A stretch of 48,535 nt of DNA from Methanohalophilus sp. (lineage in GTDB: Archaea > Halobacteriota > Methanosarcinia > Methanosarcinales > Methanosarcinaceae). Shown piece by piece: positions 5,367 to 18,212 of the stretch; position 1 is the first letter of the stretch; the number at the start of each line of letters is the position of its first letter. The notes below the pieces were generated by a model. That model did not search any database. It was not told the origin of the DNA and was given only the letters and a program-made list of their open reading frames with translations. The stretch covers positions 1 to 48,535 of the forward strand of contig NZ_JASGLW010000013.1 of the NCBI RefSeq assembly GCF_030156785.1. Direction: 5' to 3'. A program made the position numbers and the translations under genes.

Positions 5367-6176
5367 ATGCTGGAAATCTTGCAATATCAATTCATGCAAA
5401 CAGCTATTATTGCAGGACTGCTTGCCAGCATTGCGTGCGGCATAATCGGGGTTTATGTTGTCGTTAAGAGAATCGTATCTATAAGTGGAGGGATTGCCCA
5501 TGCATCTTTTGGAGGGATCGGGCTTGGATATTATCTAGGACTTAATCCCATATTGAGCGTCCTTCCGTTTAGCATCCTTACTGCAGTAGTGATGGGACTT
5601 GTTAGCCGCAGGACAAAAATTGCAGAGGATACTGCAATCGGGATACTCTGGGCTGTAGGAATGGCTTTAGGTATTATGTTTGTGGGACTTACTCCCGGCT
5701 ATGCACCGGATCTTATGACTTACCTATTTGGTAATATCCTGACAATACCCAGGATGGATCTGTACTTAATGGCAATCCTGGACGTTATGATAATTGTATT
5801 CGTGTACCTATTTTACAAGGAATTTGTGGCAATCAGCTTTGACGAGGAATTCTCTGAAGTATCAGATCTCCCCGTGGAAAAACTAAATTTGCTACTGCTT
5901 TGTCTCATAGCATTGACAATTGTTGTAATGATTCGTATTGTAGGATTGATTCTTGTCATAGCACTACTGACAATCCCGGCATCAATAAGCCGTAGTTTTT
6001 CAGGAAACCTGATAGGAATGATGAAGTTGTCTATTGCTTTTGGAACCGTTTTCACAATTTTGGGCCTGTTTCTTTCTTACCTTCTTGATGTACCTTCCGG
6101 ATCCACAATCATCCTTGTAATGGCCATAGGTTATCTGTTACATATACCACTTAAGAAAATGATGACTGCTTCATAA
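5367..6176 (+). CDS. znuB: Metal ABC transporter permease
   Basis: This 269-aa integral membrane permease belongs to the ABC-3 family (ZnuB/TroC-like) and has about eight hydrophobic segments. The family motif ISGGIAHASFGGIGLGYYLG is near residues 38-57. The C-terminal half contains the conserved run LILVIALLTIPASISRSFSGNL. GAGGAA directly upstream of the ATG overlaps the stop region of the ATPase gene, so it is translated from the same transcript. It completes the three-component importer. Confidence 0.93.
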   Translation: MLEILQYQFMQTAIIAGLLASIACGIIGVYVVVKRIVSISGGIAHASFGGIGLGYYLGLNPILSVLPFSILTAVVMGLVSRRTKIAEDTAIGILWAVGMALGIMFVGLTPGYAPDLMTYLFGNILTIPRMDLYLMAILDVMIIVFVYLFYKEFVAISFDEEFSEVSDLPVEKLNLLLLCLIALTIVVMIRIVGLILVIALLTIPASISRSFSGNLIGMMKLSIAFGTVFTILGLFLSYLLDVPSGSTIILVMAIGYLLHIPLKKMMTAS

Positions 6177-6251
6177 AAACAATAAGTATTTAATGGGAGC
6201 AGGCAAATACTTTTAACGTAGTTTCTGTAATGATCAGGAGTGGCAGGGTTT

Positions 6252-8561
6252 ATGGATTTATGCAAAAAGATCCTTGATAACATATCTATCGGCGTATGGG
6301 CTGTTGATAAGGATAAAAAATTCATTTATTTTAACTCTGGTATGGAGAGGATCACTGGGTTAAAAGAAAAGGAAGTATTGGGAAAAGAGTTGAAAACATT
6401 CCTGACTCCTACACAGAGAAGTGTGGGTGATGAAGCCCATTTCAGGGAACTTTTCCGGAAACTACAGCAAACACTGCAACCTGCACCATACAAATCATTG
6501 CCAATTATTACAAAAAAGGGAGATCTAAGCTTCCAGAACGGTCGTCTTATCCCACTGCTGGATGAGAATGGCAAATATGACGGAATGGTTTGCACAGTTG
6601 AAGAGGTAGTTAAACGTAAAATCGGCCAGAAAACACTCCGAGATCAATTAAAATCAGAGGAAAAACTTCAGGAAATCTACAGGAATAGCCCGGTAGTTGC
6701 ATTTCTCTGTACAGCAGAGGAAAACTGGCCTCTTGAATTTATTTCTGAAAATGTGTCCCAATTTGGGTATACAGTCAATGATTTCATTTCAGGAAAAATG
6801 AATTTCGGAAACTGGATCCACCCCGATGATCTTGAAGCGGTCAAATCTGATGTCACTGAACTTGAAATTGCAGGCAGAACTTATTTTTCAAAGGAATATC
6901 GCGTTCTGACTAAATCCGGTGATGTAAGGTGGGTCACAGAGAGATCATACCTGGGAAGAGATGAAATGGGAAATCCATCCTATTTCCAGGGCATACTTAT
7001 TGATATAACCTCTAGGAAACTGGCAGAAGAAGCAATGCTTGAATCAGAAAAAAACTATCATCTGATTTTTGACAATTCCCCCCTAGGAATATTTAATTTT
7101 AATTCTGATGGAATTATTACCCATTGCAATGATAATATAGCTATTATATTTGGAACAACAAAGGAAGAAATAATCGGGTTTAATCTCTTAAAAGGGGCGA
7201 AAGATGAGGAAATGCTTAATGCCATTAAGGCAGTTTTCCAGAAAAAACAGGGCCATTATGAAGGAAAATTCTGTTCACCATTCAGTAACAAAATCATTCC
7301 GATTAAAGCCGATTACAACCCTAATATCTCCAAATCCGGAACCCTTCTGGGTGGAGTCGGGATTGTTGAAGACATTAGCGATCGTATGAAGGCTGAGGAG
7401 GCCCTTCGACTTGACGAATCACGTCTTGAAACACTTGTCAAATTAAACATGATGACAGAAGCATCTCTTCAGGAAATCATTGATTTTGCCCGCGAGGAGG
7501 GGGTTCGTCTCACCAGCAGTAATATGGGATACATTGCATTTGTTGATGAAGACGAGATGAAAATGCGAATCGTATCATGGACCGACAATGCAATGAACCG
7601 TTGCAAAGTGGAAGATAAAAAGCTTGAATATAAGATTCGAAAAACCGGACTCTGGGGAGAAGCAGTCCGCAAAAGAAAGGTATTTATCAATAATAATTAC
7701 AAGGATCCTAATCCCCTCAAACGCGGTTATCCAAAAGGGCATGTTGACATTGTAAGACACATGGATGTACCTATTTTTGAAGGAGGCAGAATTGTTGCAC
7801 TTGCAGGTGTCGCTAACAAGATGGAAAACTATGATAGTTCTGATGTAAGACAGCTGAAATTGCTTATGCAGGGAATGTGGAGGCTTATACAGCGCCGCAA
7901 ATCCGAAGAAAAAATCAGAAAATCAGAGGATAAATTCAGAACCATATTTTCAAGCACCAATGATGCTATTTTCGTGCATGATTTTGATGGAAACCTGATC
8001 GAAGTAAATCGTGCTGCATGTGAGAAACTGGGTTATTCCCGTGAAGAAATGCTCACCATGAATACCATAGATTTAAACACCCGTCTGTCCATGCAAGAAA
8101 TCCCCAAGCGTATCAAGTATGTAAAAGAAAAAGGACATGCTATCTTCGAAGCAACTTATAAAAATAAAGCTGGAACACCCATTCCTGTAGAAATTAGTGC
8201 ACAAATTATTGAATATGACGATAAACCCGGTATTCTAGTAGTGGCACGTGATGTTACAGAACGTAAAAAGGCGGAGGAAGAGCTGAAAAGGTACGCTGAA
8301 GAGCTTGCCGAAGCTAACGAAGAACTGAAATCTCTGGACAAAATGAAAGATGAATTTCTATCAAATGTCAGCCATGAACTAAAAACACCACTCACATCAA
8401 TCATAGGATATTCCCAGTTGCTTTCGGATGGGACTTTTGGAAAACTAAACGAGGAACAACTCCATGCCCAGAAAATTGTAAATCGAAATGCTAATCGTTT
8501 AAAAAGGCTAGTTGATAGCTTGCTGCAGGATTCAGGCTGGAAAGTTAGAGTACTTCTTTGA
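6252..8561 (+). CDS. PAS/GAF sensor histidine kinase, N-terminal part (frameshifted)
   Basis: This is the 769-aa sensor part of a soluble histidine kinase. Domains in order are PAS (about 1-120), PAS with a PAC tail (135-260), PAS (265-385), GAF (395-555), PAS (560-680) and HisKA with the phospho-acceptor H-box SNVSHELKTPLTS (about 705-717). No transmembrane segments are seen. The ATG at 6252 is preferred over GTG 6240 because AGGAG at 6236-6240 is correctly spaced for it. The frame breaks at about 8531: after RLVDSLL the sequence runs into an unrelated tail and stops at 8561, while the ATPase domain continues in another frame. Compared with the usual SLL-xxS-R spacing, about eight bases seem missing. 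As written, the protein has no ATPase domain and would be an inactive kinase. Confidence 0.85.
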   Translation: MDLCKKILDNISIGVWAVDKDKKFIYFNSGMERITGLKEKEVLGKELKTFLTPTQRSVGDEAHFRELFRKLQQTLQPAPYKSLPIITKKGDLSFQNGRLIPLLDENGKYDGMVCTVEEVVKRKIGQKTLRDQLKSEEKLQEIYRNSPVVAFLCTAEENWPLEFISENVSQFGYTVNDFISGKMNFGNWIHPDDLEAVKSDVTELEIAGRTYFSKEYRVLTKSGDVRWVTERSYLGRDEMGNPSYFQGILIDITSRKLAEEAMLESEKNYHLIFDNSPLGIFNFNSDGIITHCNDNIAIIFGTTKEEIIGFNLLKGAKDEEMLNAIKAVFQKKQGHYEGKFCSPFSNKIIPIKADYNPNISKSGTLLGGVGIVEDISDRMKAEEALRLDESRLETLVKLNMMTEASLQEIIDFAREEGVRLTSSNMGYIAFVDEDEMKMRIVSWTDNAMNRCKVEDKKLEYKIRKTGLWGEAVRKRKVFINNNYKDPNPLKRGYPKGHVDIVRHMDVPIFEGGRIVALAGVANKMENYDSSDVRQLKLLMQGMWRLIQRRKSEEKIRKSEDKFRTIFSSTNDAIFVHDFDGNLIEVNRAACEKLGYSREEMLTMNTIDLNTRLSMQEIPKRIKYVKEKGHAIFEATYKNKAGTPIPVEISAQIIEYDDKPGILVVARDVTERKKAEEELKRYAEELAEANEELKSLDKMKDEFLSNVSHELKTPLTSIIGYSQLLSDGTFGKLNEEQLHAQKIVNRNANRLKRLVDSLLQDSGWKVRVLL

Positions 8562-9027
8562 ACCATTACAAATTGATAAATTAATGGAAACTGTTCTGGA
8601 AGATTTGAAGATCCAGGCTGATGAGAAAAAGATCAATCTGAAATTAAACCTCGATGAAAATATACCTGAAATAAATGGTGACTGGGATAAATTGACTGAC
8701 ATGCTGACAAACGTTGTGGATAATGCAATCAAGTTCACCCCCGTAGGAGGAAAAATCACACTCAGTGCCTTTAGGGAGGATAAGAAGATCCACATTGTCG
8801 TGAAAGACACGGGAATCGGGATCCCTAAGGACATGATCGGAAAACTGTTCCAGCGGTTTTATCAGATTGATGCATCACGGAAGCGTAAATACGGTGGCAC
8901 CGGGCTTGGATTATATATTTCAAAAACCATAGTCGAAGCCCATAAAGGCGAAATGTGGATAGAAAGTGAAGGAGAGGGGAAAGGTACGGAAGTTCATTTC
9001 AGATTACCCGTTGTTAAAGTTGAGTGA
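8512..9027 (+). pseudogene. Histidine kinase HATPase domain, C-terminal part after frameshift
   Basis: This is the continuation of the preceding kinase in another frame; recognisable homology begins at about 8527 (RIQAGKLEYFFEPLQID). The HATPase_c boxes are all present: N-box DNAIKFTPVGG, G1 DTGIGIP, F-box LFQRFYQ and G2 GGTGLGLYIS. The formal start (TTG at 8512) has no convincing ribosome binding site, so independent translation is doubtful. With about eight bases restored at 8531, the two parts would form one kinase of roughly 930 aa. No response regulator lies next to it. Confidence 0.8.
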
Positions 9028-9039
9028 AATCAGATAGCT

Positions 9040-9106
9040 GAAAATAGCTACTTTTATTTATCAAGACCTTCAATAAAAGGGTCAGTTACTACCTTTATAT
9101 TTATCC
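9040..9106 (+). repeat. Promoter-sized repeat, copy A (upstream of argH)
   Basis: This block is closely similar to 16812-16878 upstream of gatD; both start with GAAAATAGCTACTTTTAT. It contains the TATA-like CTTTTATTTA (9051-9060), which would start transcription near 9080 and give argH a short leader with GAGG at 9115-9118. A second TATA-like run (TTTATATTTA, 9094-9103) is too near the ATG to be combined with that ribosome binding site. Confidence 0.7.
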
Positions 9107-9124
9107 ATAAACCTGAGGCATTTT

Positions 9125-10600
9125 ATGAGTGATATCCTGCGACGTGGACGGCTTGAGTTAGTACCTGATAAAGAGATTATGGAATATACCACATCTCTTA
9201 AAGCTGACAGATGGATTTTTGATGCAGACATACTTGTGGATTTTGCACACACTGTTATGCTTACAGAACAGGGGATCATAAAGCGGTCCGCCTCCGAATC
9301 TATTCTTAAAGGTTTAATGCAGATCAGGGACGAAGGAATTGATCAGCTTGATAATTCATACGAGGATATCCACATTGCCTTGGAAGCACGGCTCATCGAA
9401 CTTGTTGGTGAAGACATTGGTGGACGGATGCACTCAGGAAGATCACGCAATGATGAAGTTGCCACATGTATCAGGCTGAGATTACGTGAGGAACTGCTGG
9501 GAATAATGGAAGATTTGCTGCATTTGCGTGCCGTTTTGCTGGATATTGCAGATAAAAATCGGGACACAATAATGCCAGGTTTTACTCACCTGCAGCATGC
9601 ACAACCAACCACCATGGGACACCACATGATGGCACACCAACAGGCGTTTGGAAGAGACTTTGAGAGAGTAATGGATTGCTTTGCCCGCGTGAATCGCTCA
9701 CCGTTGGGAGCTGCTGCGTTTGCCTCAACTGGCTTTGCCATAAACAGGGAAAGAACCCGTGAACTGCTAGGCTTTAATGAAATTATTGAGAACTCAATGG
9801 ATGCTGTGAGTAGCCGAGATTTTTTGATAGAGACTGCTTCAGTGATTGCATGCATTATGGTTAACCTGACCCGCATTGCAGAAGAACTGGTACTCTGGTC
9901 TTCAAAGGAATTTTCATTCATTGAACTTTCAGATCAATATGCATCCACTTCGTCGATTATGCCGCAGAAAAAAAATCCGGATACTGCAGAGCTTTTAAGA
10001 GGAAAAAGCGGAGTTGCAACCGGAAACCTCATGGCATTACTTACAATTTGTAAAGGTTTGCCATTAAGCTACAACAGGGATCTTCAGGAAGCAACACCCC
10101 TCATCTGGAATAGTATCCAGACATGCAGGACATCCCTGAGAATTACAGCAGGAATGCTTGCATCCATGAAAATCAATGAAAATGTGCTTGCAGAACAATC
10201 AACAACCGGATTTACCACTGCTACTGAACTTGCCGACACTCTTGTAAGGGAATGTGATATACCATTTAGAACAGCTCACCAGATAGTCGGTCAACTTGCG
10301 AGGATGGAGGGAGTACCCACATTTGCCGATATTGAACGGGTCGGAAAAGATATTCTTGGGGAAAGTCTCATTGAACGCGGACTCAGTGAACAGATGCTGA
10401 AGGAAGCTCTTGATCCGATGCTGAATGTTAAGAGACGTAATACAACAGGCGGACCTAATCCAGATGAAATCAGCAATTCAATCATGCGGATAAAAAAACA
10501 GCTTTCAGCGGAAGAAGAAAAAGTCACCAATATACGACAAAGCATTGATAGGGCTTTAAATAACCTCATGCAAACTGTGGATAAATACACTGGCAATTAA
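9125..10600 (+). CDS. argH: Argininosuccinate lyase
   Basis: This 491-aa enzyme splits argininosuccinate into arginine and fumarate, the last step of arginine synthesis. It belongs to the fumarase/aspartase superfamily. The superfamily signature is STSSIMPQKKNPD (about residues 278-290). HSGRSRNDEVATCIRLRLREE (first conserved region) and TFTHLQHAQPTT-type region two (GFTHLQHAQPTTMGHH) are intact. The C-terminus is about 30 aa longer than the usual 450-460 aa bacterial enzyme, ending in a coiled, charged segment. The promoter region shares a repeat with the gatD upstream region. Confidence 0.96.
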   Translation: MSDILRRGRLELVPDKEIMEYTTSLKADRWIFDADILVDFAHTVMLTEQGIIKRSASESILKGLMQIRDEGIDQLDNSYEDIHIALEARLIELVGEDIGGRMHSGRSRNDEVATCIRLRLREELLGIMEDLLHLRAVLLDIADKNRDTIMPGFTHLQHAQPTTMGHHMMAHQQAFGRDFERVMDCFARVNRSPLGAAAFASTGFAINRERTRELLGFNEIIENSMDAVSSRDFLIETASVIACIMVNLTRIAEELVLWSSKEFSFIELSDQYASTSSIMPQKKNPDTAELLRGKSGVATGNLMALLTICKGLPLSYNRDLQEATPLIWNSIQTCRTSLRITAGMLASMKINENVLAEQSTTGFTTATELADTLVRECDIPFRTAHQIVGQLARMEGVPTFADIERVGKDILGESLIERGLSEQMLKEALDPMLNVKRRNTTGGPNPDEISNSIMRIKKQLSAEEEKVTNIRQSIDRALNNLMQTVDKYTGN

Positions 10601-10656
10601 ACTTACAGTTAATTTTTATAATCCCGCAAAACCGGAAAGCGAAGGGCAATGGTAAT

Positions 10657-11937
10657 ATGGAACGATCCATCAGTGACATCCAGAAAAAGTTAGAAAATCA
10701 TGATGCCGTTGTTATGACAGCTCAGGAGATTTGTGAACGTGTTGAAAAAGAAGACATAACAATCCGGGATGTTGATGTTGTAACCACCGCCACCCGGGCC
10801 ATTATGAGTGGGACATATGCAGTAATGTCTTTTCCTGCAAAAGCACCTTTCCATTTTACAAGAGCGTCAAAAGTCCTTCTCAATGGTGTACCCACCCATG
10901 TGGGACCATGCCCAAATGAAAGCCTTGGAATACTTGACCTCATGGTTTTCGGCACAGCTCATTCAAGTATAAGGCGCGGATATGGGGCTGGCCACCTGTT
11001 TCGTGATATGGTCGAGCAAAAAACAATTGACGTATCGGTCACCACCAATGACAACAATACGTTCCAGAGCGAGATTACGCTGGATGAGATGCCATACGCC
11101 AAACTCCATTCCACAAGAAACGTTTTCAAAAACTACTCCGCTTTTGTAAACTGTTCGGATATCCCTGTCAATACAATATTCCATGCGACTCCTTTCGAAC
11201 CGGATATGGAAAGTGCTACACTTTCCGGATGTGGACAGATAAACCCTGTGAAAAACGACCCGCTGTTGCAGACAATCGGCATGGGTACACGGGTTATTAT
11301 AAACGGTGGGGAAGGTTTTGTCATCGGGTGCGGTACACGCAGCAGTCCTGAAAAACCAAACCTTACAGGAATTGCTGACATGCATAATATGGATCCGCAG
11401 CTTATGGGGGGATTTTTAACATCTGCAGGCCCGGAATGTATTGTATCCTGGGCGGTTCCTATCCCTGTATTAAATCAATCAATCCTTGATGCCATAATCA
11501 CACCGGACCGAGAAATACCAATGCCGGTGATGGATGTTGACAAAAGAGTTGCCATATCTGCCAGCAACTATGCAGACGCATGGGAAAATGTTGACCTTTC
11601 AGTGAAATTTGAGCCATCTTCATGCCTGCGCTGCAAAGTATGTAAGCCTATTGAAAACTGCCCCATGGACGCCATATACCACAAAAACGAAAAACTGCTA
11701 CTTGACAGGAATTTATGCTTTAATTGCGGACTCTGCGCTACAAACTGCCCCGGGAATGTGTTCAGTGCAGAGCTTGGAGCAGTCCGGGTGGAAAAAGAGG
11801 GAAAAATGCGGGAAGTTCCTATTGTGCTCAGACAGTCCGACCGTAAGAGAGCGCTCAGCATGGCGGAAAAACTAAAGAAAGATATTATTGATGGTTCGTT
11901 TAAACTGACCGGGACGCTCGGGAGGATTCAGCCATAA
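10657..11937 (+). CDS. DUF39 protein with C-terminal ferredoxin domain (methanogenesis marker 16 type)
   Basis: This 426-aa protein has a large DUF39 (COG1900) domain, the family that includes the methanogen L-aspartate-semialdehyde sulfurtransferase of homocysteine synthesis. Conserved-looking cysteines are Cys85 (GPCPNE), Cys166, Cys192 (SGCGQINP) and Cys225. At about 337-390 it carries two 4Fe-4S motifs (CLRCKVCKPIENCP and CFNCGLCATNCP). Domain make-up fits the protein family called methanogenesis marker 16 (recalled, not searched). It is convergent with comE, and the two coding ends overlap by 38 bp (11900-11937). Homology to a sulfur-inserting enzyme plus position beside comDE suggests a role in adding sulfur to sulfoacetaldehyde in coenzyme M synthesis; this is inference. 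Confidence 0.85.
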   Translation: MERSISDIQKKLENHDAVVMTAQEICERVEKEDITIRDVDVVTTATRAIMSGTYAVMSFPAKAPFHFTRASKVLLNGVPTHVGPCPNESLGILDLMVFGTAHSSIRRGYGAGHLFRDMVEQKTIDVSVTTNDNNTFQSEITLDEMPYAKLHSTRNVFKNYSAFVNCSDIPVNTIFHATPFEPDMESATLSGCGQINPVKNDPLLQTIGMGTRVIINGGEGFVIGCGTRSSPEKPNLTGIADMHNMDPQLMGGFLTSAGPECIVSWAVPIPVLNQSILDAIITPDREIPMPVMDVDKRVAISASNYADAWENVDLSVKFEPSSCLRCKVCKPIENCPMDAIYHKNEKLLLDRNLCFNCGLCATNCPGNVFSAELGAVRVEKEGKMREVPIVLRQSDRKRALSMAEKLKKDIIDGSFKLTGTLGRIQP

Positions 11938-12469
11938 ATCTGCTCAGTATTGCTTCCGGAATCATCTGAATTACCGGAACATCCTCATTCCCGGGCTGTG
12001 CCTTGGCCACGATGATACCACTATCCTTTTCTCCTAAGATCGTATGCAGCCTTTGAAGACTATCCACTTCAAAGACATCCCTGTTTCCAGCACCTTGTGC
12101 AACCTCCTCAAGGTTCACATGATTTAAGGTAGCCGTCGGTTGGTTACCTGTAGAACCATAAGCCCCGTTATCAACAATTACAAGCAGGTAATTCTGCGGC
12201 GCCTGAGAAGCAATCGTTGCAAGGGTGCCCATATTCATAAGAATTGAGCCATCACCATCAATTGTTATGACATTGCGCTCAGGTCTGGATAATGCCAGCC
12301 CAAGACCGATGGAAGATGCGAGGCCCATGGAACCCAGCATGTAGAAATTATTAGGCATATCGGAGACACTATACAATTCCTTGCACGGAATGCCTATGTT
12401 GGCAATCAGCAAGGCATCCGAATCCCGTGCCTTGTCCGCAACTTCACGAATGACATCAATTCGTTTCAT
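11900..12469 (-). CDS. comE: Sulfopyruvate decarboxylase, beta subunit
   Basis: This 189-aa subunit binds thiamine diphosphate. With ComD it decarboxylates sulfopyruvate to sulfoacetaldehyde in coenzyme M synthesis. The TPP-binding motif is visible as GDGSILMNMG followed by the Asn-containing VDNGAYGSTGNQPT. The start at 12469 forms a 4-nt ATGA overlap with the comD stop and gives MKRIDVIREV; the reading frame upstream to 12538 is open but lies inside comD. The length matches the separate ComE subunit of other methanogens. Some Methanosarcina have a fused ComDE, as I recall; here the subunits are separate. The 3' end overlaps the convergent DUF39 gene. Confidence 0.93.
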   Translation of the reverse strand: MKRIDVIREVADKARDSDALLIANIGIPCKELYSVSDMPNNFYMLGSMGLASSIGLGLALSRPERNVITIDGDGSILMNMGTLATIASQAPQNYLLVIVDNGAYGSTGNQPTATLNHVNLEEVAQGAGNRDVFEVDSLQRLHTILGEKDSGIIVAKAQPGNEDVPVIQMIPEAILSRFMAESSRASRSV

Positions 12470-12975
12470 GGTTGGCTCCAGAAAGGTATAGGCAACAAAA
12501 TTGCCACCGGTCTTTTTTCCTCGACCGCCCGTATCCACGCGATACGTACTGCCTTTGTAGCATCTGCCTTTGATGATGGAAGATAATATGAAATGCCAAG
12601 AGTATCCAGCAGTGGCGCTGTCATCTCCCCCATTGGCACCTGTGCACAGATTGTTTCGTCCCCTATCCCGCGATGACTTATGATCATAAGCAGAGGAATA
12701 CCGTAGAGCAGGTTCAATGAAGAAAGAGCATTGATAGAATTACCAAGCCCTGAATTCTGCATCAGTATTGCTGCTTTTTTTCCACCCATGTAAGCACCTG
12801 CACACACCCCTACCCCTTCCTCCTCCCGGGTCACAGGTATGTGAATAACGGATGATTCCCTGTCCACCATCGGGATCAGGTCCTTCAGGTTGACACAGGG
12901 GACACTTACGATAAAATCAATACCCACATCCATAAGGCCATTGAATACCGCCTCAGTTGGCGTAATGTCTTTCAT
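12466..12975 (-). CDS. comD: Sulfopyruvate decarboxylase, alpha subunit
   Basis: This 169-aa partner of ComE carries the N-terminal (pyrimidine-binding) half of a TPP decarboxylase: the conserved Glu lies in TREEEGVGVCAGAYMGGKKA, followed by QNSGLGNSINALSSLN. The start at 12975 (MKDITPTEAV) is chosen because the length then equals that of known ComD. GGTGAT lies about 13 nt upstream, and extension to 13041 would overlap the previous gene. It lies 13 bp after the Fe-S protein gene, the only junction in this operon that is not a 4-nt ATGA overlap. Confidence 0.93.
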   Translation of the reverse strand: MKDITPTEAVFNGLMDVGIDFIVSVPCVNLKDLIPMVDRESSVIHIPVTREEEGVGVCAGAYMGGKKAAILMQNSGLGNSINALSSLNLLYGIPLLMIISHRGIGDETICAQVPMGEMTAPLLDTLGISYYLPSSKADATKAVRIAWIRAVEEKRPVAILLPIPFWSQP

Positions 12976-12988
12976 ATCTGAGATTGTA

Positions 12989-13636
12989 TCACCACACTTT
13001 AAGGTCAATACCTTCGATCCGTACTTTTTTTCCTTCAACACCTACAACCACGCCAGAATGAACTTTTTGCATCATACAATACTCAGGAATAAATTTCACA
13101 GTCTGTCCTACTTTCGGAATCCCGCCTTTTGAAACAATACCCTCAAAGGCAAGAATCATCGCAAGCCCCACGTCCTTGAACCGGAAATCTTCCTGACCCA
13201 GCCGATGCAACGGCCCTACAAGATGAATTGTGTATATCCCGGGAGAAACATCAATGACTCTGGCAAAATGCGTAATAGGACACGCCAGTGGCCTGTAGCG
13301 CAGGAAATCACCAGTCTCAATCGTAACCAAGCCATTAAAGGGATGTATCTCTTCCCTGCAGGAACCCTCGTTTTTAAGCGGGGCAAGTATAAAATCCGCA
13401 TTCAGGCCATCTATGACTCCTGTGATTTCTGCCTGCTCACTGCAACCGGAATCATTGCCTTGCAGAAGAGTTATCAATTGATCCAGATGTTCCTTAAACT
13501 GACTCCTTAACAGAAAGGGACATTTTCTGAGAGTATCGGGGTTTTTGATATTAGCAGCAAAATCGGCACAGCGCCTGAAACCACAGCTTCCGCAATTATA
13601 ACCGGGCAGGTGCTTTGTTATCTCATCCAGTTTCAT
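12989..13636 (-). CDS. Fe-S protein with N-terminal 4Fe-4S domain, unknown role
   Basis: This 215-aa protein begins with a PF04060-like Fe-S domain: Cys15, Cys18, Cys23 and Cys39 in NCGSCGFRRCADF followed by RKC. That domain is also found in the corrinoid Fe-S protein and RnfB. The remaining 170 residues are alpha/beta without a motif I recognise; one segment reads YRPLACPITHFARVIDVSPG. The start at 13636 overlaps the GTPase stop as ATGA. Co-translation with cysteate synthase, comD and comE ties it to coenzyme M synthesis, for example electron transfer or sulfur donation, but no function can be claimed from sequence. Confidence 0.8.
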   Translation of the reverse strand: MKLDEITKHLPGYNCGSCGFRRCADFAANIKNPDTLRKCPFLLRSQFKEHLDQLITLLQGNDSGCSEQAEITGVIDGLNADFILAPLKNEGSCREEIHPFNGLVTIETGDFLRYRPLACPITHFARVIDVSPGIYTIHLVGPLHRLGQEDFRFKDVGLAMILAFEGIVSKGGIPKVGQTVKFIPEYCMMQKVHSGVVVGVEGKKVRIEGIDLKVW

Positions 13637-14331
13637 TCCCCCCTGTACTCCGTAAAACCATCCATCTGCCTGAGGACACCCATGTGATGTTTGCGGGCAA
13701 TGCGGGTTTCCCCGGTGCATAGAGAGCATATTGCAAGAGGGGGAGTGTGGCGCAGGACAATGTTATCACAAACATTCATACCTGCCTCGATAAGTTCGGC
13801 AATCTCAGATGCGCCTTTTCCGGTGAGACCATTGGCTTCCACAACCATACAATCAGGATTCACGTCAAGTACTCGTTCCCTGAAAACCTCTCTTTCGGCC
13901 TGGGATACAATATCACCTTTTGTCATGACAACTATATCGGCAGTAGTAAGCAAAGGACCCACCTTCAGAGGTGTGTTCGGCCCTGTAGTAACATCGATAA
14001 CACAAATTGCAAGGCATTTATCAGGATATGGGGCACAACGCAGGCAAAGCCCTGCAGTTTCATTCAGGAGCACATCAGCACCTTCAGCTTCGGCCCATTT
14101 TAGCATCTCCTCGGTATTGTAAATTGTAAAATGATCAGGGCACATGTCTCTGGCAAGCCCCACACGTACCGGGATGTTTAGCCTGTCGAATCGCTGATCA
14201 TCATCTGTCCAGAGGCAGTCAACCTTCACAACTGCAGGTTTATTACCATCCCTTACAAGCACCTTAATGACATGGAGCAAAACAGACGTTTTTCCGGAAC
14301 CCTGAGTTCCTGCAAGTACTACCAGTTTCAT
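13633..14331 (-). CDS. CobW/HypB-like P-loop GTPase, unknown role
   Basis: This is a 232-aa P-loop NTPase. The P-loop is GTQGSGKTS (residues 8-16), a Walker-B-like region ends in LLNETAGLCLRC, and a TKGD motif stands where G3E GTPases have NKxD. Several Cys pairs (CLRC, CSLC) could bind metal. The overall pattern resembles HypB/CobW metallochaperones. It overlaps both neighbours by ATGA (14331-14328 and 13636-13633). In a coenzyme M operon with an Fe-S protein, a role in cofactor insertion or enzyme maturation is plausible but inferred. Confidence 0.8.
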   Translation of the reverse strand: MKLVVLAGTQGSGKTSVLLHVIKVLVRDGNKPAVVKVDCLWTDDDQRFDRLNIPVRVGLARDMCPDHFTIYNTEEMLKWAEAEGADVLLNETAGLCLRCAPYPDKCLAICVIDVTTGPNTPLKVGPLLTTADIVVMTKGDIVSQAEREVFRERVLDVNPDCMVVEANGLTGKGASEIAELIEAGMNVCDNIVLRHTPPLAICSLCTGETRIARKHHMGVLRQMDGFTEYRGE

Positions 14332-15092
14332 GCCATATCCTCCACAATATCACCTCTACGAATAGTTTCCCTTAGAGACATAAGCCAATTATCAACCTCA
14401 ACGATTTTGTTACAGACATGCTGCTCATTGGCACTGGTGGTAATTATGTTTGTCATAGCGCCATTACGAATAACTATCCTGCGGGCCGCCATAAGAGCCA
14501 GCATTGGATCATGGGTTACAACTATGACTATCTTACCCTCACCTGCCAGTAATTCAAGCGCTTCCTGTTTCTTAATACCCGCATTCTCTATCTCGTCTAT
14601 GAGAACTACCGGGGAATCGCTTATCACTGCAATATCTGCAGTCATGAGTGACCTAGACTGTCCGCCACTGAGAACCGTAAGAGGACAATGGGGAGCTATT
14701 GGTTCTCCGGTAAGAGTGTTTGCAAGCTCTATCACCTTCTCCGAAAGACATTCAGCCTTTCCCCTGCTGCGTGCATGCATTTGCAGAAAATCCTCAACAT
14801 TCATATCAGCCAGAAAATGCATGTTCTGGGACAACTGTGATACAAGCTTCTTTCTGGGATCAACACGAGTGCATGCATCAGGTTTTACTCCATCGATAAG
14901 AATAGTCCTCCCTGTTGCAGTGTCTCCCTGTGCAAGCTGCTCAATATCAGCGATGAGCGTGCTTTTGCCTGAGCCGGTGGGACCTACGATACCCAGTATC
15001 TCCCCCGGGCTTACCTCCACGGATCGTATTGGCTCCGGGACACCATCCTTATCCACACCACCAAGAATTGTAAGAATAGGTTTTTTGTTCAT
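14328..15092 (-). CDS. ABC-type ATPase without a membrane partner, unknown role
   Basis: This 254-aa ABC ATPase domain has Walker A GPTGSGKST (about 36-44), signature LSGGQSRSLM, Walker B VVLIDEIENAG and H-loop VTHD. No permease or binding protein lies nearby. The Walker B is followed by IENAG rather than the transporter-typical P-T/V-S-G-L-D, and the Q-loop region is QLSQNMHFL. It therefore looks like a soluble ABC protein, perhaps a maturation or activation ATPase like the methyl-CoM reductase component A2 (AtwA) type, though shorter. It overlaps cysteate synthase and the GTPase by ATGA on both sides. Confidence 0.82.
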   Translation of the reverse strand: MNKKPILTILGGVDKDGVPEPIRSVEVSPGEILGIVGPTGSGKSTLIADIEQLAQGDTATGRTILIDGVKPDACTRVDPRKKLVSQLSQNMHFLADMNVEDFLQMHARSRGKAECLSEKVIELANTLTGEPIAPHCPLTVLSGGQSRSLMTADIAVISDSPVVLIDEIENAGIKKQEALELLAGEGKIVIVVTHDPMLALMAARRIVIRNGAMTNIITTSANEQHVCNKIVEVDNWLMSLRETIRRGDIVEDMA

Positions 15093-16345
15093 AGTCTCGT
15101 ACCAAATACTTCTGTTGCAGCCTCAACAATTCTGTCTTCAGCACATGGATCATCTGCTGACACTGCTATGGATGCAAGCAACTGCCTTGGCTGATAATCC
15201 TGCATCAGGCGCTTTTGCCCGCCACCGGTAATATTCAACACGATACTGTCATCGGGTTTGATGTTGCCCTGCTCCACTGCCTGCATCAGCGAAGCTACTG
15301 CCACGGCTGCAGCAGGATTTATGTCAATTCCTTCTGTTTTTTCGAATAGTGCCTGTGCACCGGACGCCTCTTCATTGGAAACTGCATACATTGTACCATT
15401 TGTGGCTTCAAGGGCATCCCTGACACCGCCTGTGATGGCATAAGGAGGTTTCCTGTTAAAGAGGACATCAGCATACATTCCTTCCGGACATGTGGCTGAA
15501 ACTTCGCCCACGTCATTCCAGAGAGAATAAAGAGGAGCACAAGGAAGACTCTGTCCCAGATGCAAACGCGGGAGCTTTGAGCCGAATCTGCCATCTCCAA
15601 TAAGACGAAGTGACGCTTCCCATGCTGAAATCCCACCGGTGCCACTTCCCACAGCCTGAAAATAGTGATCAAATAACTGTCCTGATGTCAGAACCGCATC
15701 CAGCATCACTGTGCCCATGCCATCCCTTCTGGCAACGTTTTTTGCCCCGCCTTCATTGACAAAACCATCCCTTGCGGCAATATTTCCTGCCAGTGCAATG
15801 GCATCAGAATAATCACCTTCCACTGTGGCAAGACATATGGATGAACTGTCAGCCCTAATGGTCCAAAGCCGGTGCAGGCTGGCTTCCGGAATCACAAGAA
15901 GCAAGGGCTGTCCTGTGATGCTGCATACATTTGCAAACGCCCTTGCGGTATTACCTGCCGATGCCACTACCATGACACGGGTTTCTTTGAGTTCCTTCAA
16001 ACGCTGCATGGTGGGGAAAGCCTCCAGATCTTTGAAAGTACAGGTCATCAGCTCCGCTCCTTTTTCAGGCCAGTAGCCATTAAAAGCTATCCACAGAGAA
16101 TCAAGCCCCAGTTCAGATGCAAAGGCTTCACTTCTGTACGTTACGGTTTTTCCTGAACCCTGTTCTATAATACCATTAACCGGCAGCCAATCATAAAACT
16201 TCCAGATACCCGGCAGATCCAATGGCATCAGCTGCTTTGCCGAGTATTCAGTGCGGAGAAGGGATGTATCATTGTTTTTGCAATTCATGGAATATGGATC
16301 ATGAATCTGCATGCATTGCAAACATCTGACAGCATACTTATTCAT
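15089..16345 (-). CDS. Cysteate synthase
   Basis: This 418-aa fold-type II PLP enzyme is related to threonine synthase. The lysine in MTCTFKDLEA (about residue 104) is the likely Schiff-base residue, SAGNTARAF is the substrate-binding loop and VGSGTGGISAWEA binds the PLP phosphate. Cysteate synthase replaces the phosphate of O-phosphoserine with sulfite to give L-cysteate, which a transaminase and ComDE turn into sulfoacetaldehyde. The choice over threonine synthase rests on the operon with comDE, a link known from Methanosarcina. The N-terminus has cysteines (CLQCMQIHDPYSMNC) resembling a zinc-binding head. First gene of the operon. The aminotransferase is not encoded in this window. Confidence 0.85.
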   Translation of the reverse strand: MNKYAVRCLQCMQIHDPYSMNCKNNDTSLLRTEYSAKQLMPLDLPGIWKFYDWLPVNGIIEQGSGKTVTYRSEAFASELGLDSLWIAFNGYWPEKGAELMTCTFKDLEAFPTMQRLKELKETRVMVVASAGNTARAFANVCSITGQPLLLVIPEASLHRLWTIRADSSSICLATVEGDYSDAIALAGNIAARDGFVNEGGAKNVARRDGMGTVMLDAVLTSGQLFDHYFQAVGSGTGGISAWEASLRLIGDGRFGSKLPRLHLGQSLPCAPLYSLWNDVGEVSATCPEGMYADVLFNRKPPYAITGGVRDALEATNGTMYAVSNEEASGAQALFEKTEGIDINPAAAVAVASLMQAVEQGNIKPDDSIVLNITGGGQKRLMQDYQPRQLLASIAVSADDPCAEDRIVEAATEVFGTRL

Positions 16346-16370
16346 ATATCAGGCTGGGAAAAAGCGTTGA

Positions 16371-16377
16371 TAAAAGT
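16371..16377 (-). promoter_or_regulatory. TATA box of the coenzyme M operon
   Basis: On the minus strand the sequence reads CTTTTAT, centred about 29 bases before the cysteate synthase ATG at 16345. No strong ribosome binding site precedes that ATG, so the operon mRNA is probably leaderless or nearly so. Confidence 0.45.
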
Positions 16378-16582
16378 TTCCCCATTTTGATGAAAATTAT
16401 CCGTATTGTGATAAAAAGCGATGATCAATAATACATTTAGACAAGTTGTGGATGAAATATATTAGTGAAGATATTAAAAGGAAGAAGTATTCGAAAAAGT
16501 GTTGAAAATATTTGCCCCACACAGAAAAGAGCAGGGGATAAGCATATATCAGAGAACTTTTCCGAGGGATGCAGGAGAAAAC

Positions 16583-16672
16583 ATGACTCTCATATCCCGT
16601 ATCATTGCCAAAAACTACGAAGGATATCCTGATCCGCAACCAACTACTTCATTGTATTACCTGCGGTATTGA
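16583..16672 (+). CDS. Small ORF with promoter-like and RBS signals, unknown
   Basis: This 29-codon ORF starts MTLISRIIAKNYEGYPDPQP and ends in an aromatic tail. AGGAG (16573-16577) sits five bases before the ATG, and a TATA-like CATATATC lies at about 16543-16550. Its stop codon overlaps the left target-site duplication of the MITE-like element, so the stop itself predates the insertion. It may be a genuine small protein, a leader peptide or a remnant; I do not recognise it. Confidence 0.3.
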   Translation: MTLISRIIAKNYEGYPDPQPTTSLYYLRY

Positions 16673-16678
16673 AAATAA

Positions 16679-16811
16679 GGCCCTGTAGAAAACCTATGTT
16701 TCAGATATGAACCACAGAGTTCACAGAGAACACAGAGAAGAAGAAAATCCTCTGTGAACTCTGTGTTCTCTGTGGTTCCATTTGCATTCTAAAGAGGATT
16801 TCTACAGAGCC
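16679..16811 (+). mobile_element. MITE-like inverted-repeat element (133 bp)
   Basis: The terminal inverted repeats are GGCCCTGTAGAAAACCT (16679-16695) and AGGATTTCTACAGAGCC (16795-16811), matching at 15 of 17 positions. They are flanked by the direct repeat GAAAATA (16671-16677 and 16812-16818), a likely target-site duplication. Inside are two arms built of 9-bp NNCACAGAG units, left at 16709-16738 and right, inverted, at 16749-16779. There is no transposase gene, so it would need one supplied in trans. It lies about 140 bp upstream of gatD. Confidence 0.75.
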
Positions 16812-16878
16812 GAAAATAGCTACTTTTATGTACCAAGACCTGCAATGAAAGGGCAGTTAACACCTGTTAGATTATCCT
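16812..16878 (+). repeat. Promoter-sized repeat, copy B (upstream of gatD)
   Basis: This is the second copy of the block at 9040-9106. The first TATA-like element is conserved (CTTTTATGTA, about 16823-16832), while the second is degraded. It starts exactly at the right-hand flank of the MITE-like element. It probably supplies the gatD promoter, with a leader of about 100 nt. Confidence 0.65.
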
Positions 16879-16952
16879 TTGAGCCTGTGAAGAAAGCAAC
16901 CGCAGATAAACAGGCAGACAATTATGCATCACAATTACACAAAGGGGAAAAC

Positions 16953-18197
16953 ATGGATTACGAATTGGGAGACATAATCAGAGTCACAAGAAATGGCAAT
17001 GAATATGAGGGTGTGGTCATGCCTTCAGTGACCGACCATATTGTGCTGAAGATGAAAAACGGCTATAATGTGGGAATCGAGCTGGAAGGCGCAGAAATTG
17101 CAATTATTGAAAGAAAAAGTGATGCAAAACCTACCCCACATAAAGAAAAAACACCGATCAATAAGAAACTCCCAAACATTACAATTCTTTCCACAGGGGG
17201 TACGATTGCAAGTAAGGTGGATTATCGCACAGGTGCTGTGACAGCTCAGTTTTCTGCCGATGACATTGTTAAAGCAATTCCCGAACTAGAGGATATTGCT
17301 AACATTCGTGGCAGGGTAATTACAAACATTCTGTCTGAAAACATGAAATCGGAAACCTGGGTTGATCTTGCGCATGCTGTCGCAGAGGAAATCGAAAAAG
17401 GAGCCGACGGCATTGTTATTGCCCATGGAACCGATACAATGATGTATTCGGCAGCTGCCCTTTCCTTCATGTTGCGCACCCCGGTTCCTGTTGTCTTTGT
17501 AGGATCCCAGAGAAGTGCGGATCGCCCCAGCAGCGATAATGTTATGAATGCCATATGCGCTGCAACCGTAGCAACCAGTGACATTGCTGAAGTGTGTGTC
17601 GTGATGCATAACAGTAGTTCCGATGACATGTGCGCTATCCATTATGGCACACGCGTGCGGAAAATGCATACCTCCCGCAGGGATGCTTTCAAATCCATCA
17701 ATTCCGAACCTATCGGCTACGTTGATTACTCTGACCGCAGGATTTCCACAAATCTGGAATACACAAAACGCGGTGAAAAAAAGCTCGAACTTATTAACAC
17801 AATACAGCCAAAATGCGCCTTAATCAAATTCATCCCCGGAGCAGATCCAGCGGTTCTTTCCTACTATATTGATACAGGATACAAAGGAATTGTAATCGAA
17901 GGAACTGGTCTTGGACATGTCTCCACAAACTGGATTCCGGAAATTGAACGTGCCACAACCGCAGGAATCCCGGTAATTGTAACGTCTCAGTGCCTCAACG
18001 GACGCATCTGCAACAGGGTTTATGATACCGGAAGAGATATGACCAAAGCAGGCGCCATTGAAGCTGAGGATATGCTGCCGGAAGTAGCACTTGTCAAACT
18101 TATGTGGGTTCTTGGGCAGACAAATGATATGAATCGGATCAGGAAACTCATGCAGAATCCGGTTAGCAACGAGATTGCATACTGCAGTCTCAAATAA
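16953..18197 (+). CDS. gatD: Glu-tRNA(Gln) amidotransferase subunit D
   Basis: This 414-aa asparaginase-like subunit frees ammonia from glutamine, and archaeal GatE uses it to convert Glu-tRNA(Gln) to Gln-tRNA(Gln). The start at 16953 ([15 protein letters not shown]) matches the N-terminal domain of the family; the in-frame ATG at 16782 lies within the MITE-like element and is rejected. The first catalytic Thr motif is [17 protein letters not shown] and the second is [32 protein letters not shown] is also typical. gatE is not in the window. AAAGGGGA before the ATG serves as the ribosome binding site. Confidence 0.95.
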
Positions 18198-18212
18198 CGT
18201 TTTTAATAAAGC

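Follow-up and report, generated by a model that had tools for sequence, protein, structure and literature searches.

A conserved ABC ATPase, GTPase and iron-sulfur protein trio beside coenzyme M genes in Methanohalophilus is optional, mobile and not confined to coenzyme M synthesis

Introduction

Iron-sulfur (Fe-S) clusters are assembled by the ISC, SUF (SufBCDS), NIF and minimal systems. HypB and UreG are GTPases in which a Cys/His motif has a role in nickel binding. Here we examine a set of three adjacent genes that recalls both, encoding a stand-alone ABC ATPase, a G3E-type GTPase and an Fe-S protein (the trio), which lies within the coenzyme M (CoM) operon of Methanohalophilus sp. on contig NZ_JASGLW010000013.1. 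The whole stretch of DNA that was analysed, 48,535 nucleotides, is referred to as the window. The trio is real and conserved, yet it is also optional, mobile and broader than CoM synthesis. Together with its bacterial partners it resembles SUF in combining an Fe-S protein and a cysteine desulfurase with a stand-alone ABC ATPase, in many cases next to a regulator of Rrf2 type; it differs in that no SufB is found among the seven window proteins, no SufC model is among the 25 best NCBIfam matches to the ABC protein and a G3E GTPase is present instead.

The closest precedent in print is a study that identified MMP16 as the primary CoM synthase in M. acetivorans, with a reaction that requires sulfur and two or four electrons (Chadwick et al. 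2025, PMC12068725). According to the legend of its Figure 2, CoM genes often have as neighbours the genes of an ATPase, a Ni2+-binding GTPase and a COG2000 Fe-S protein, whose role is given there as unknown. These are the same three genes beside CoM genes as in the window, and we borrow the label COG2000 from that paper. The portions of its text available to us are silent on a spread to bacteria, on desulfurase or Rrf2 partners, on a horizontal insertion, on the scar left by a deletion, and on the metal-motif and Cys2His2 positions described below. Among Creative Commons (CC)-licensed papers in PubMed Central (PMC), it was the sole relevant one returned by searches for COG2000 and for MMP16 with coenzyme M, and searches for the trio under other wordings gave nothing further of relevance. 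The initial annotation, made from the letters of the window, had put the trio forward as an undescribed subsystem; going by the available portions of this paper, the colocalisation is already published.

Results

Organization of the operon

The seven genes under consideration, with the profile matches that identify them, are as follows.

15089-16345, minus strand: cysteate synthase (TIGR03844, 596 bits; cut-off 324.9)
14328-15092, minus strand: stand-alone ABC ATPase (PF00005, 55.5; cut-off 25)
13633-14331, minus strand: G3E-type GTPase with HypB/UreG-like metal motifs (PF02492, 49.1; cut-off 20.7)
12989-13636, minus strand: COG2000-type Fe-S protein, 215 aa (PF04060, 33.9; cut-off 23)
12466-12975, minus strand: comD, sulfopyruvate decarboxylase alpha (TIGR03845, 220; cut-off 147.95)
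11900-12469, minus strand: comE, sulfopyruvate decarboxylase beta (TIGR03846, 235 bits; cut-off 221.5)
10657-11937, plus strand: MMP16, putative coenzyme M synthase ComF (TIGR03287, 511.6 bits; cut-off 363.95; PF01837, 342.5 bits)

These coordinates and profile matches bear out the minus-strand operon of the initial annotation, which runs from cysteate synthase through the ABC, GTPase and Fe-S genes to comD and comE. Its account of the junctions holds exactly: four gene pairs are joined by ATGA overlaps (15092-15089, 14331-14328, 13636-13633 and, between comD and comE, 12469-12466), and only the Fe-S gene and comD are separated, by a gap of 13 bp (12976-12988). The Fe-S protein was taken to start at the ATG at 13636, and a longer frame was set aside, since this start agrees with both the ATGA overlap and the aligned relatives. 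The box originally drawn around the operon (11900-16345) ends short of the gene for MMP16, which is convergent to the operon, shares 38 bp with the 3' end of comE and encodes a COG1900/HcyBio domain together with a ferredoxin domain. The phosphoserine-route CoM set of cysteate synthase, ComD, ComE and MMP16 is thus present in one region, with every member above its curated cut-off.

The trio as a unit and its tie to CoM genes in Halobacteriota

The trio was surveyed in 196 Halobacteriota genomes and at the 80 loci that ranked best in a scan of all species (described below). Searches with the Fe-S protein (E<=1e-5) matched 70 of the 196 genomes, with full-length matches in 48, while the other 22 cover the N-terminal 4Fe-4S part only. 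The GTPase alignment (E<=1e-30) matched 53 genomes, 48 of which hold a GTPase of trio type, namely 47 above 350 bits plus G170, where the gene is split at contig ends; left out were G003, which carries a relic, and G037, G045, G095 and G186, which carry the sister clade only. The Fe-S and GTPase sets are the identical 48 genomes, and the two genes lie less than 100 bp apart in 47 of them. The exception is G009, in which a cysteine desulfurase stands between the GTPase and Fe-S genes; none occupies that position in the other 47 Halobacteriota trios.

Within 6 kb of the GTPase, cysteate synthase was found in 41 of the 48 trio genomes, MMP16 in 33, ComE in 33 and all three together in 31; five genomes (G009, G011, G039, G047 and G182) have none of them within this distance. 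At least four gene orders link the trio to CoM genes in Halobacteriota. The order seen in the window is that of family f1, with MMP16 mostly convergent behind it. Eight genomes of family f3, which we take to be that of Methanothrix, have cysteate synthase followed by the trio alone, with MMP16 and ComE elsewhere. Families f5, f13, f16, f23 and f24 share the order ABC-GTPase-FeS-MMP16-cysteate synthase-ComDE, partly read directly and for the remainder taken from matching distances. Finally, the trio adjoins MMP16 in two f7 genomes, convergently in G179 and on the same strand in G170. The former, a Methanophagales genome, has two MMP16 copies above cut-off (on C96 and C149): the trio adjoins one of them, and cysteate synthase and ComE adjoin the other.

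MMP16 exceeds its cut-off in 44 of the 48 trio genomes versus 45 of the 148 others (Fisher p = 1.8e-14), and cysteate synthase is present in 45 versus 38 (Fisher p = 9.4e-18), the trials behind both values not being independent because the genomes are related. Among 14 control genomes, matches were obtained for MMP16 in 2, ComE in 2 and cysteate synthase in 1, all of them methanogens. The neighbourhood survey proposed with the initial annotation thus finds the three-gene order recurring across Halobacteriota with a strong tie to CoM genes. Since the order recurs in bacteria as well, the arrangement is not a matter of chance.

Predicted metal and Fe-S sites

The GTPase belongs to the G3E P-loop GTPases by its PF02492 score and by conservation of G8, G13, K14, T137 and D140, residues with P-loop and base-recognition roles. 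It carries three metal motifs, CPDH (64-67), C96xRC99 and C202xxC205, which show no exception in any aligned sequence from the 80 scan loci, the 6 sister-clade loci and the 41 archaeal loci, these last coming from 33 genomes and including the window; for C96 and C99 the invariance across the 80 scan loci arises partly by selection, because the scan patterns include that motif. H216 is found in all aligned GTPases except those of the sister clade. CPDH aligns with the Cys/His motif of HypB and the CPH of UreG, so that the G domain contains the Cys/His motif of the G3E metal-chaperone subgroup as a predicted metal site. HypB and UreG are also the nearest full-domain solved relatives, and they share with the trio GTPase the G3E domain and the motif at the same alignment place. 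However, the trio GTPase falls under both family cut-offs (50.9 bits for HypB TIGR00073, cut-off 121.2; 29.6 bits for UreG TIGR00101, cut-off 204.2), has CxRC where HypB has one Cys, adds the invariant C202xxC205 and adjoins an ABC ATPase.

In the ABC protein the Walker A, Q-loop, Walker B Asp-Glu and His positions are conserved in all aligned sequences, and the LSGGQ motif deviates in 1 of 78. No permease gene is found among the seven genes of the block. Of the 152 NCBIfam matches to the ABC protein, the best 25 include no SufC model and are headed by PhnT at 56.3 bits, and profile scans found no SufB among the seven window proteins, the 80 scan loci not having been searched with that model.

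The N-terminus of the Fe-S protein holds a 4Fe-4S motif (C15, C18, C23 and C39) that is conserved in all 67 aligned scan sequences and all 40 archaeal ones, and this part resembles the gamma subunit of the corrinoid/Fe-S protein and RnfB. A second, putative Cys2His2 site (C119, H123, C187 and H193) is retained in 73 of 73 and 41 of 41. When 20 Fe-S proteins were scanned against Pfam (E up to 1), PF04060 was matched by all 20, with otherwise scattered weak matches. The AlphaFold2 model of the protein (pLDDT 90.2, pTM 0.68) has a beta-rich, well predicted C-terminal domain, for which two Foldseek searches with two AlphaFold2 models gave no match in the PDB at E<=0.001.

Spread of the trio in bacteria

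The all-species scan, in which the GTPase alignment was compared with one genome each of 84,980 species, used patterns that contain part of the C96/C99 motif and yielded at least 591 pattern stretches, of which 579 were confirmed and the best 80 loci kept. By record title 77 of these are bacterial and 3 archaeal, and the taxa include Acidobacteria, Omnitrophota, Burkholderiales, Gallionellaceae, Chloroflexi, Planctomycetes and Bacteroidales. The ABC gene lies upstream of the GTPase in 78 of the 80 loci and the Fe-S gene downstream in 73; in six of the seven loci without an Fe-S gene, the locus ends within 1.4 kb of the GTPase. At none of the 80 loci was MMP16, cysteate synthase, ComD or ComE found within 3 kb on the same strand; at one (L033), MMP16 lies near the trio on the opposite strand. 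ComE was matched (E<=1e-30) in 7 of 50 trio genomes tested, passing its cut-off in 1, and 43 gave no match.

At 33 of the 80 loci (23 of the 52 with full flanks) the GTPase is followed, within 0.7 kb, by a NifS-like cysteine desulfurase, which precedes the Fe-S gene wherever the contig extends that far. At 25 (12 of the 52) there is an Rrf2-type regulator nearby. The identities of these partners were checked on four desulfurases and one Rrf2 protein. At 458, 485, 476 and 462 bits the four desulfurases do not reach the NifS equivalog TIGR03402 (cut-off 530.75), and three of them pass the broader IscS-subfamily model NF002806. Further neighbours are mixed: among the first 25 of 86 Pfam families, none occurs in more than 3 of 64 scanned frames, some of which are probably not genes. 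TauE/SafE, a sulfite exporter by its Pfam name, occurs in 2 of these 64; a cysteine synthase-like cluster is present at 11 of the 80 loci and a Cys/Met pyridoxal phosphate (PLP)-enzyme-like cluster at 9, both named by eye and with no enrichment claimed.

At two Bacteroidales loci, L105 (11907-13019) and L107, a HydE-like radical SAM maturase gene is placed between the desulfurase and Fe-S genes of the trio operon; the L105 protein scores 344 bits against TIGR03956 (cut-off 254.6). A plasmid search with a bacterial GTPase returned one weak record, a 2.1-Mb Fusobacterium replicon in which the match belongs to the sister clade and lies in a stretch without annotated genes.

The trio is thus neither confined to CoM-makers nor general among them. 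A subsystem specific to CoM, as first proposed, is contradicted by the lack of same-strand CoM genes within 3 kb at all 80 loci, by the 43 of 50 genomes without a ComE match and by the 45 of 89 MMP16-bearing Halobacteriota genomes that have no trio; wide occurrence of the trio outside CoM-makers was an outcome that the initial annotation had itself named as refuting. Of the claim that the three proteins act together in the CoM pathway, the unit stands (48 of 48 genomes in co-occurrence, 47 with adjacent genes), as does the link to CoM in Halobacteriota, but not the restriction to CoM. A universal helper of COG1900/HcyBio proteins was also considered and rejected, because PF01837 has no match in 30 of 35 trio genomes, these representing 35 of the 80 best loci.

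Deletion and decay of the trio

Two genomes preserve traces of a former trio. In G032 (L118, ~5571-5606) a short stretch common to both joins the start of the ABC gene to the very last part of the Fe-S gene; about ten codons remain, and cysteate synthase, comD, comE and MMP16 all have open frames. The bases flanking this scar match those around the full trio in the congener G041; judged by this alignment, G032 carries a natural deletion of exactly the three trio genes. In G003 (L125, ~5870-7240) frame shifts and a stop interrupt the ABC gene, and an in-frame fusion joins the 5' half of the GTPase gene with the 3' half of comE; searches of this genome found neither cysteate synthase nor MMP16 above cut-off.

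Horizontal acquisition of the seven-gene block

Two further features of the window concern the history of the operon.

10591-16915, no strand: seven-gene block, putative horizontal insertion (blastn collinearity break versus G276; four-protein tree)
16709-16778, no strand: inverted repeat with two 29-nt arms, 86% complementary, near the right edge of the inserted block

When compared by blastn with G276 (L146), the closest congener, window positions 6665-10590 and then 16916-18204 match nearly adjacent bases, and therefore about 6.3 kb with all seven genes is missing there. The empty site of G276 lies between argH and an asparaginase-like gene, and its own CoM cluster is located elsewhere in the genome, without the trio. 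In a tree of cysteate synthase, ComD, ComE and MMP16 (20 rows), the window groups with four rows of genus g5, presumably Methanolobus, and one of g2 (support 97/98), and the seven congeners form a separate clade (100/100). Cysteate synthase is present in all seven congeners. The GTPase was not found in the six that were searched; in the remaining one, G287, less than 20 bp lies between the end of the cysteate synthase match and that of comD. The genome of the window has a single cysteate synthase and, at a completeness of 94.55%, the native CoM cluster is missing from it. Collinearity and tree alike indicate that a seven-gene CoM package including the trio was acquired horizontally. A mis-binned contig was rejected as an explanation, since ArgH in the window (84%) and an L-ASST-like protein outside it (90%), each sought among 60 family genomes, both have their best match in G276. 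The inverted repeat consists of CTCTGTG-type units, and patterns from its 15-19-nt core were found, among the loci from L114 onward, only in a stretch of the same genome.

A sister clade and the origin of the trio

The trio GTPase and ABC ATPase have, gene by gene, a sister pair (L134-L138 and L113) that looks like another metal-handling set, judging from its neighbours. The partner of the sister pair is a solute-binding protein rather than a COG2000 protein in L134, L136 and the Fusobacterium locus L113, and some neighbours are of metal-uptake type: a DUF1858/SBP_bac_6 binding protein accompanies the pair in L134 and L113, SBP_bac_6 and FecCD in L136, a FecCD-type permease in L137 and a DUF364 heavy-metal-chelation protein in L135. 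A tree of ABC and GTPase together (74 rows, including 41 of the 80 best scan loci; short search, SH-aLRT support only) was rooted on this sister clade. Families f1 and f3 branch first, followed by a group of f13, f16, f24 and f4 in which most but not all trios are CoM-linked; the other scan loci form a clade with G009 and G039 (98) next to the CoM-linked Methanophagales (94). This topology fits an archaeal origin beside CoM genes and a later spread to bacteria, and it depends on the root.

Discussion

We propose that the trio is a cytosolic, nucleotide-driven trafficking module for iron-sulfur or sulfur cargo that in Halobacteriota methanogens is hitched to CoM genes and most likely serves MMP16, and we give this reading a probability of roughly 0.42. 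That the module handles Fe-S or sulfur cargo, and does not itself carry out a step of CoM synthesis, is probable; that MMP16 is the main client in methanogens is a more tentative suggestion. The earlier idea, that the trio matures an enzyme of the Fe-S or sulfur-transfer kind, is still the best guess once the CoM-specific role is dropped from it. The following steps are suggested by the metal, Fe-S and ABC residues and by the gene neighbours. The GTPase would load a metal, most likely iron. In bacteria the desulfurase would supply the sulfur by taking it from cysteine; the CoM-linked methanogens would draw it from elsewhere, perhaps from sulfide. The Fe-S protein would act as carrier or scaffold, and ATP hydrolysis by an ABC dimer would drive release in the manner of SufC. 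In the methanogens of the Halobacteriota, the module would serve MMP16 as a CoM synthase that inserts sulfur or depends on Fe-S clusters. The trio may thus aid CoM synthesis without being essential to it, and might be needed when sulfide or iron is scarce.

Such a module is supported by the constant gene order, by co-occurrence, by the conserved ABC, metal and Fe-S residues, and by the desulfurase and Rrf2 regulator in many bacterial operons. Block inheritance supports it as well, in the form of the seven-gene insertion, the three-gene deletion of G032 and the joint decay of trio and CoM genes in G003. Further support lies in the tie to CoM genes in Halobacteriota, in the binding-protein, permease and metal-chelation neighbours of the sister pair, and in the ferredoxin domain of MMP16 together with the sulfur and electrons that its reaction takes. 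Several observations weigh against it. The trio is lacking in 45 of the 89 Halobacteriota genomes with MMP16, and in M. acetivorans the published spacing of 140 bp between cysteate synthase (MA3297) and comDE (MA3298) leaves, on the available text of that paper, no trio between them (PMC12713407). G182, a single contig at 99% completeness, keeps its trio intact and yields no cysteate synthase, ComE or MMP16 above cut-off, and G056 has the trio with cysteate synthase and ComDE and no MMP16 above cut-off. In the eight f3 genomes the trio stands beside cysteate synthase only, with MMP16 on another contig or 1.04 Mb away; this layout and G056 make MMP16 doubtful as the client. Moreover, no desulfurase follows the GTPase at 47 of the 80 best bacterial and archaeal loci, or at 29 of the 52 with full flanks. 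According to the accessible part of PMC8351635, 290 of 311 SufBC-containing genomes of methanogens and alkanotrophs also have SufS homologues, and the main exception is Methanococcales; a desulfurase encoded elsewhere in trio genomes is therefore possible. As a separate observation, genus g44, to which both G056 (L126) and G182 (L127) belong, may be shedding CoM synthesis stepwise.

A bolder proposal, which we regard as doubtful, is that the trio forms the core of a further, unnamed iron-sulfur or sulfur assembly machine of anaerobes that feeds the CoM synthase in many methanogens. The metal would then come from the G3E GTPase and the sulfur from sulfide or from a NifS-like desulfurase, and the COG2000 protein, with its 4Fe-4S cluster and Cys2His2 site, would be a scaffold from which the soluble ABC ATPase drives transfer. 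By record titles, such a machine would extend over more than 10 bacterial phyla and several archaeal ones.

An unlikely alternative is a metallochaperone set for Fe, Ni, Zn or another metal, whose client is unrelated to CoM and which is merely co-carried in one transferable anaerobic island. The metal-uptake settings of the sister clade, the trios in G182 and in genomes without ComE, and horizontal transfer of the block would all agree with it. However, the link to CoM has been kept across several gene orders and in archaeal branches basal to the bacterial clade, and in G003 the trio decays together with the CoM genes. Rather improbable is a reductive activator, in which the ABC ATPase, instead of helping to deliver sulfur or iron, would spend ATP on driving an electron of low potential out of the 4Fe-4S protein and on to MMP16 or a different Fe-S enzyme. 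Reductive activases carry out ATP-driven low-potential electron transfer, and the N-terminal domains of the corrinoid/Fe-S gamma subunit and RnfB, which that of the Fe-S protein resembles, are redox domains. The ABC catalytic residues are intact and the chemistry of MMP16, as given in the available text, takes two or four electrons (PMC12068725), but this explanation leaves unaccounted for the metal motif of the GTPase and the desulfurase that follows it at 33 of the 80 best loci. Very improbable, finally, is that the trio provides or protects the sulfite consumed by cysteate synthase: no other CoM gene accompanies the trio as frequently (41 of 48), in the eight f3 genomes none but this one does, and TauE/SafE appears among the bacterial neighbours (2 of 64), but MMP16 rather than cysteate synthase adjoins the trio in G179 and G170, no trio protein resembles a sulfite-making enzyme, and cysteate synthase is near the trio at none of the 80 best scan loci.

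If the trio is indeed the core of an Fe-S or sulfur assembly machine, it is one without a name in the papers that searches of the CC-licensed PMC literature found. The trio offers three linked candidate genes that bear on the sulfur donor and accessory proteins of the last step of CoM synthesis. Within one genus some operons have the trio and others lack it, which amounts to a natural experiment, and the bacterial version with its cysteine desulfurase is open to direct assay.

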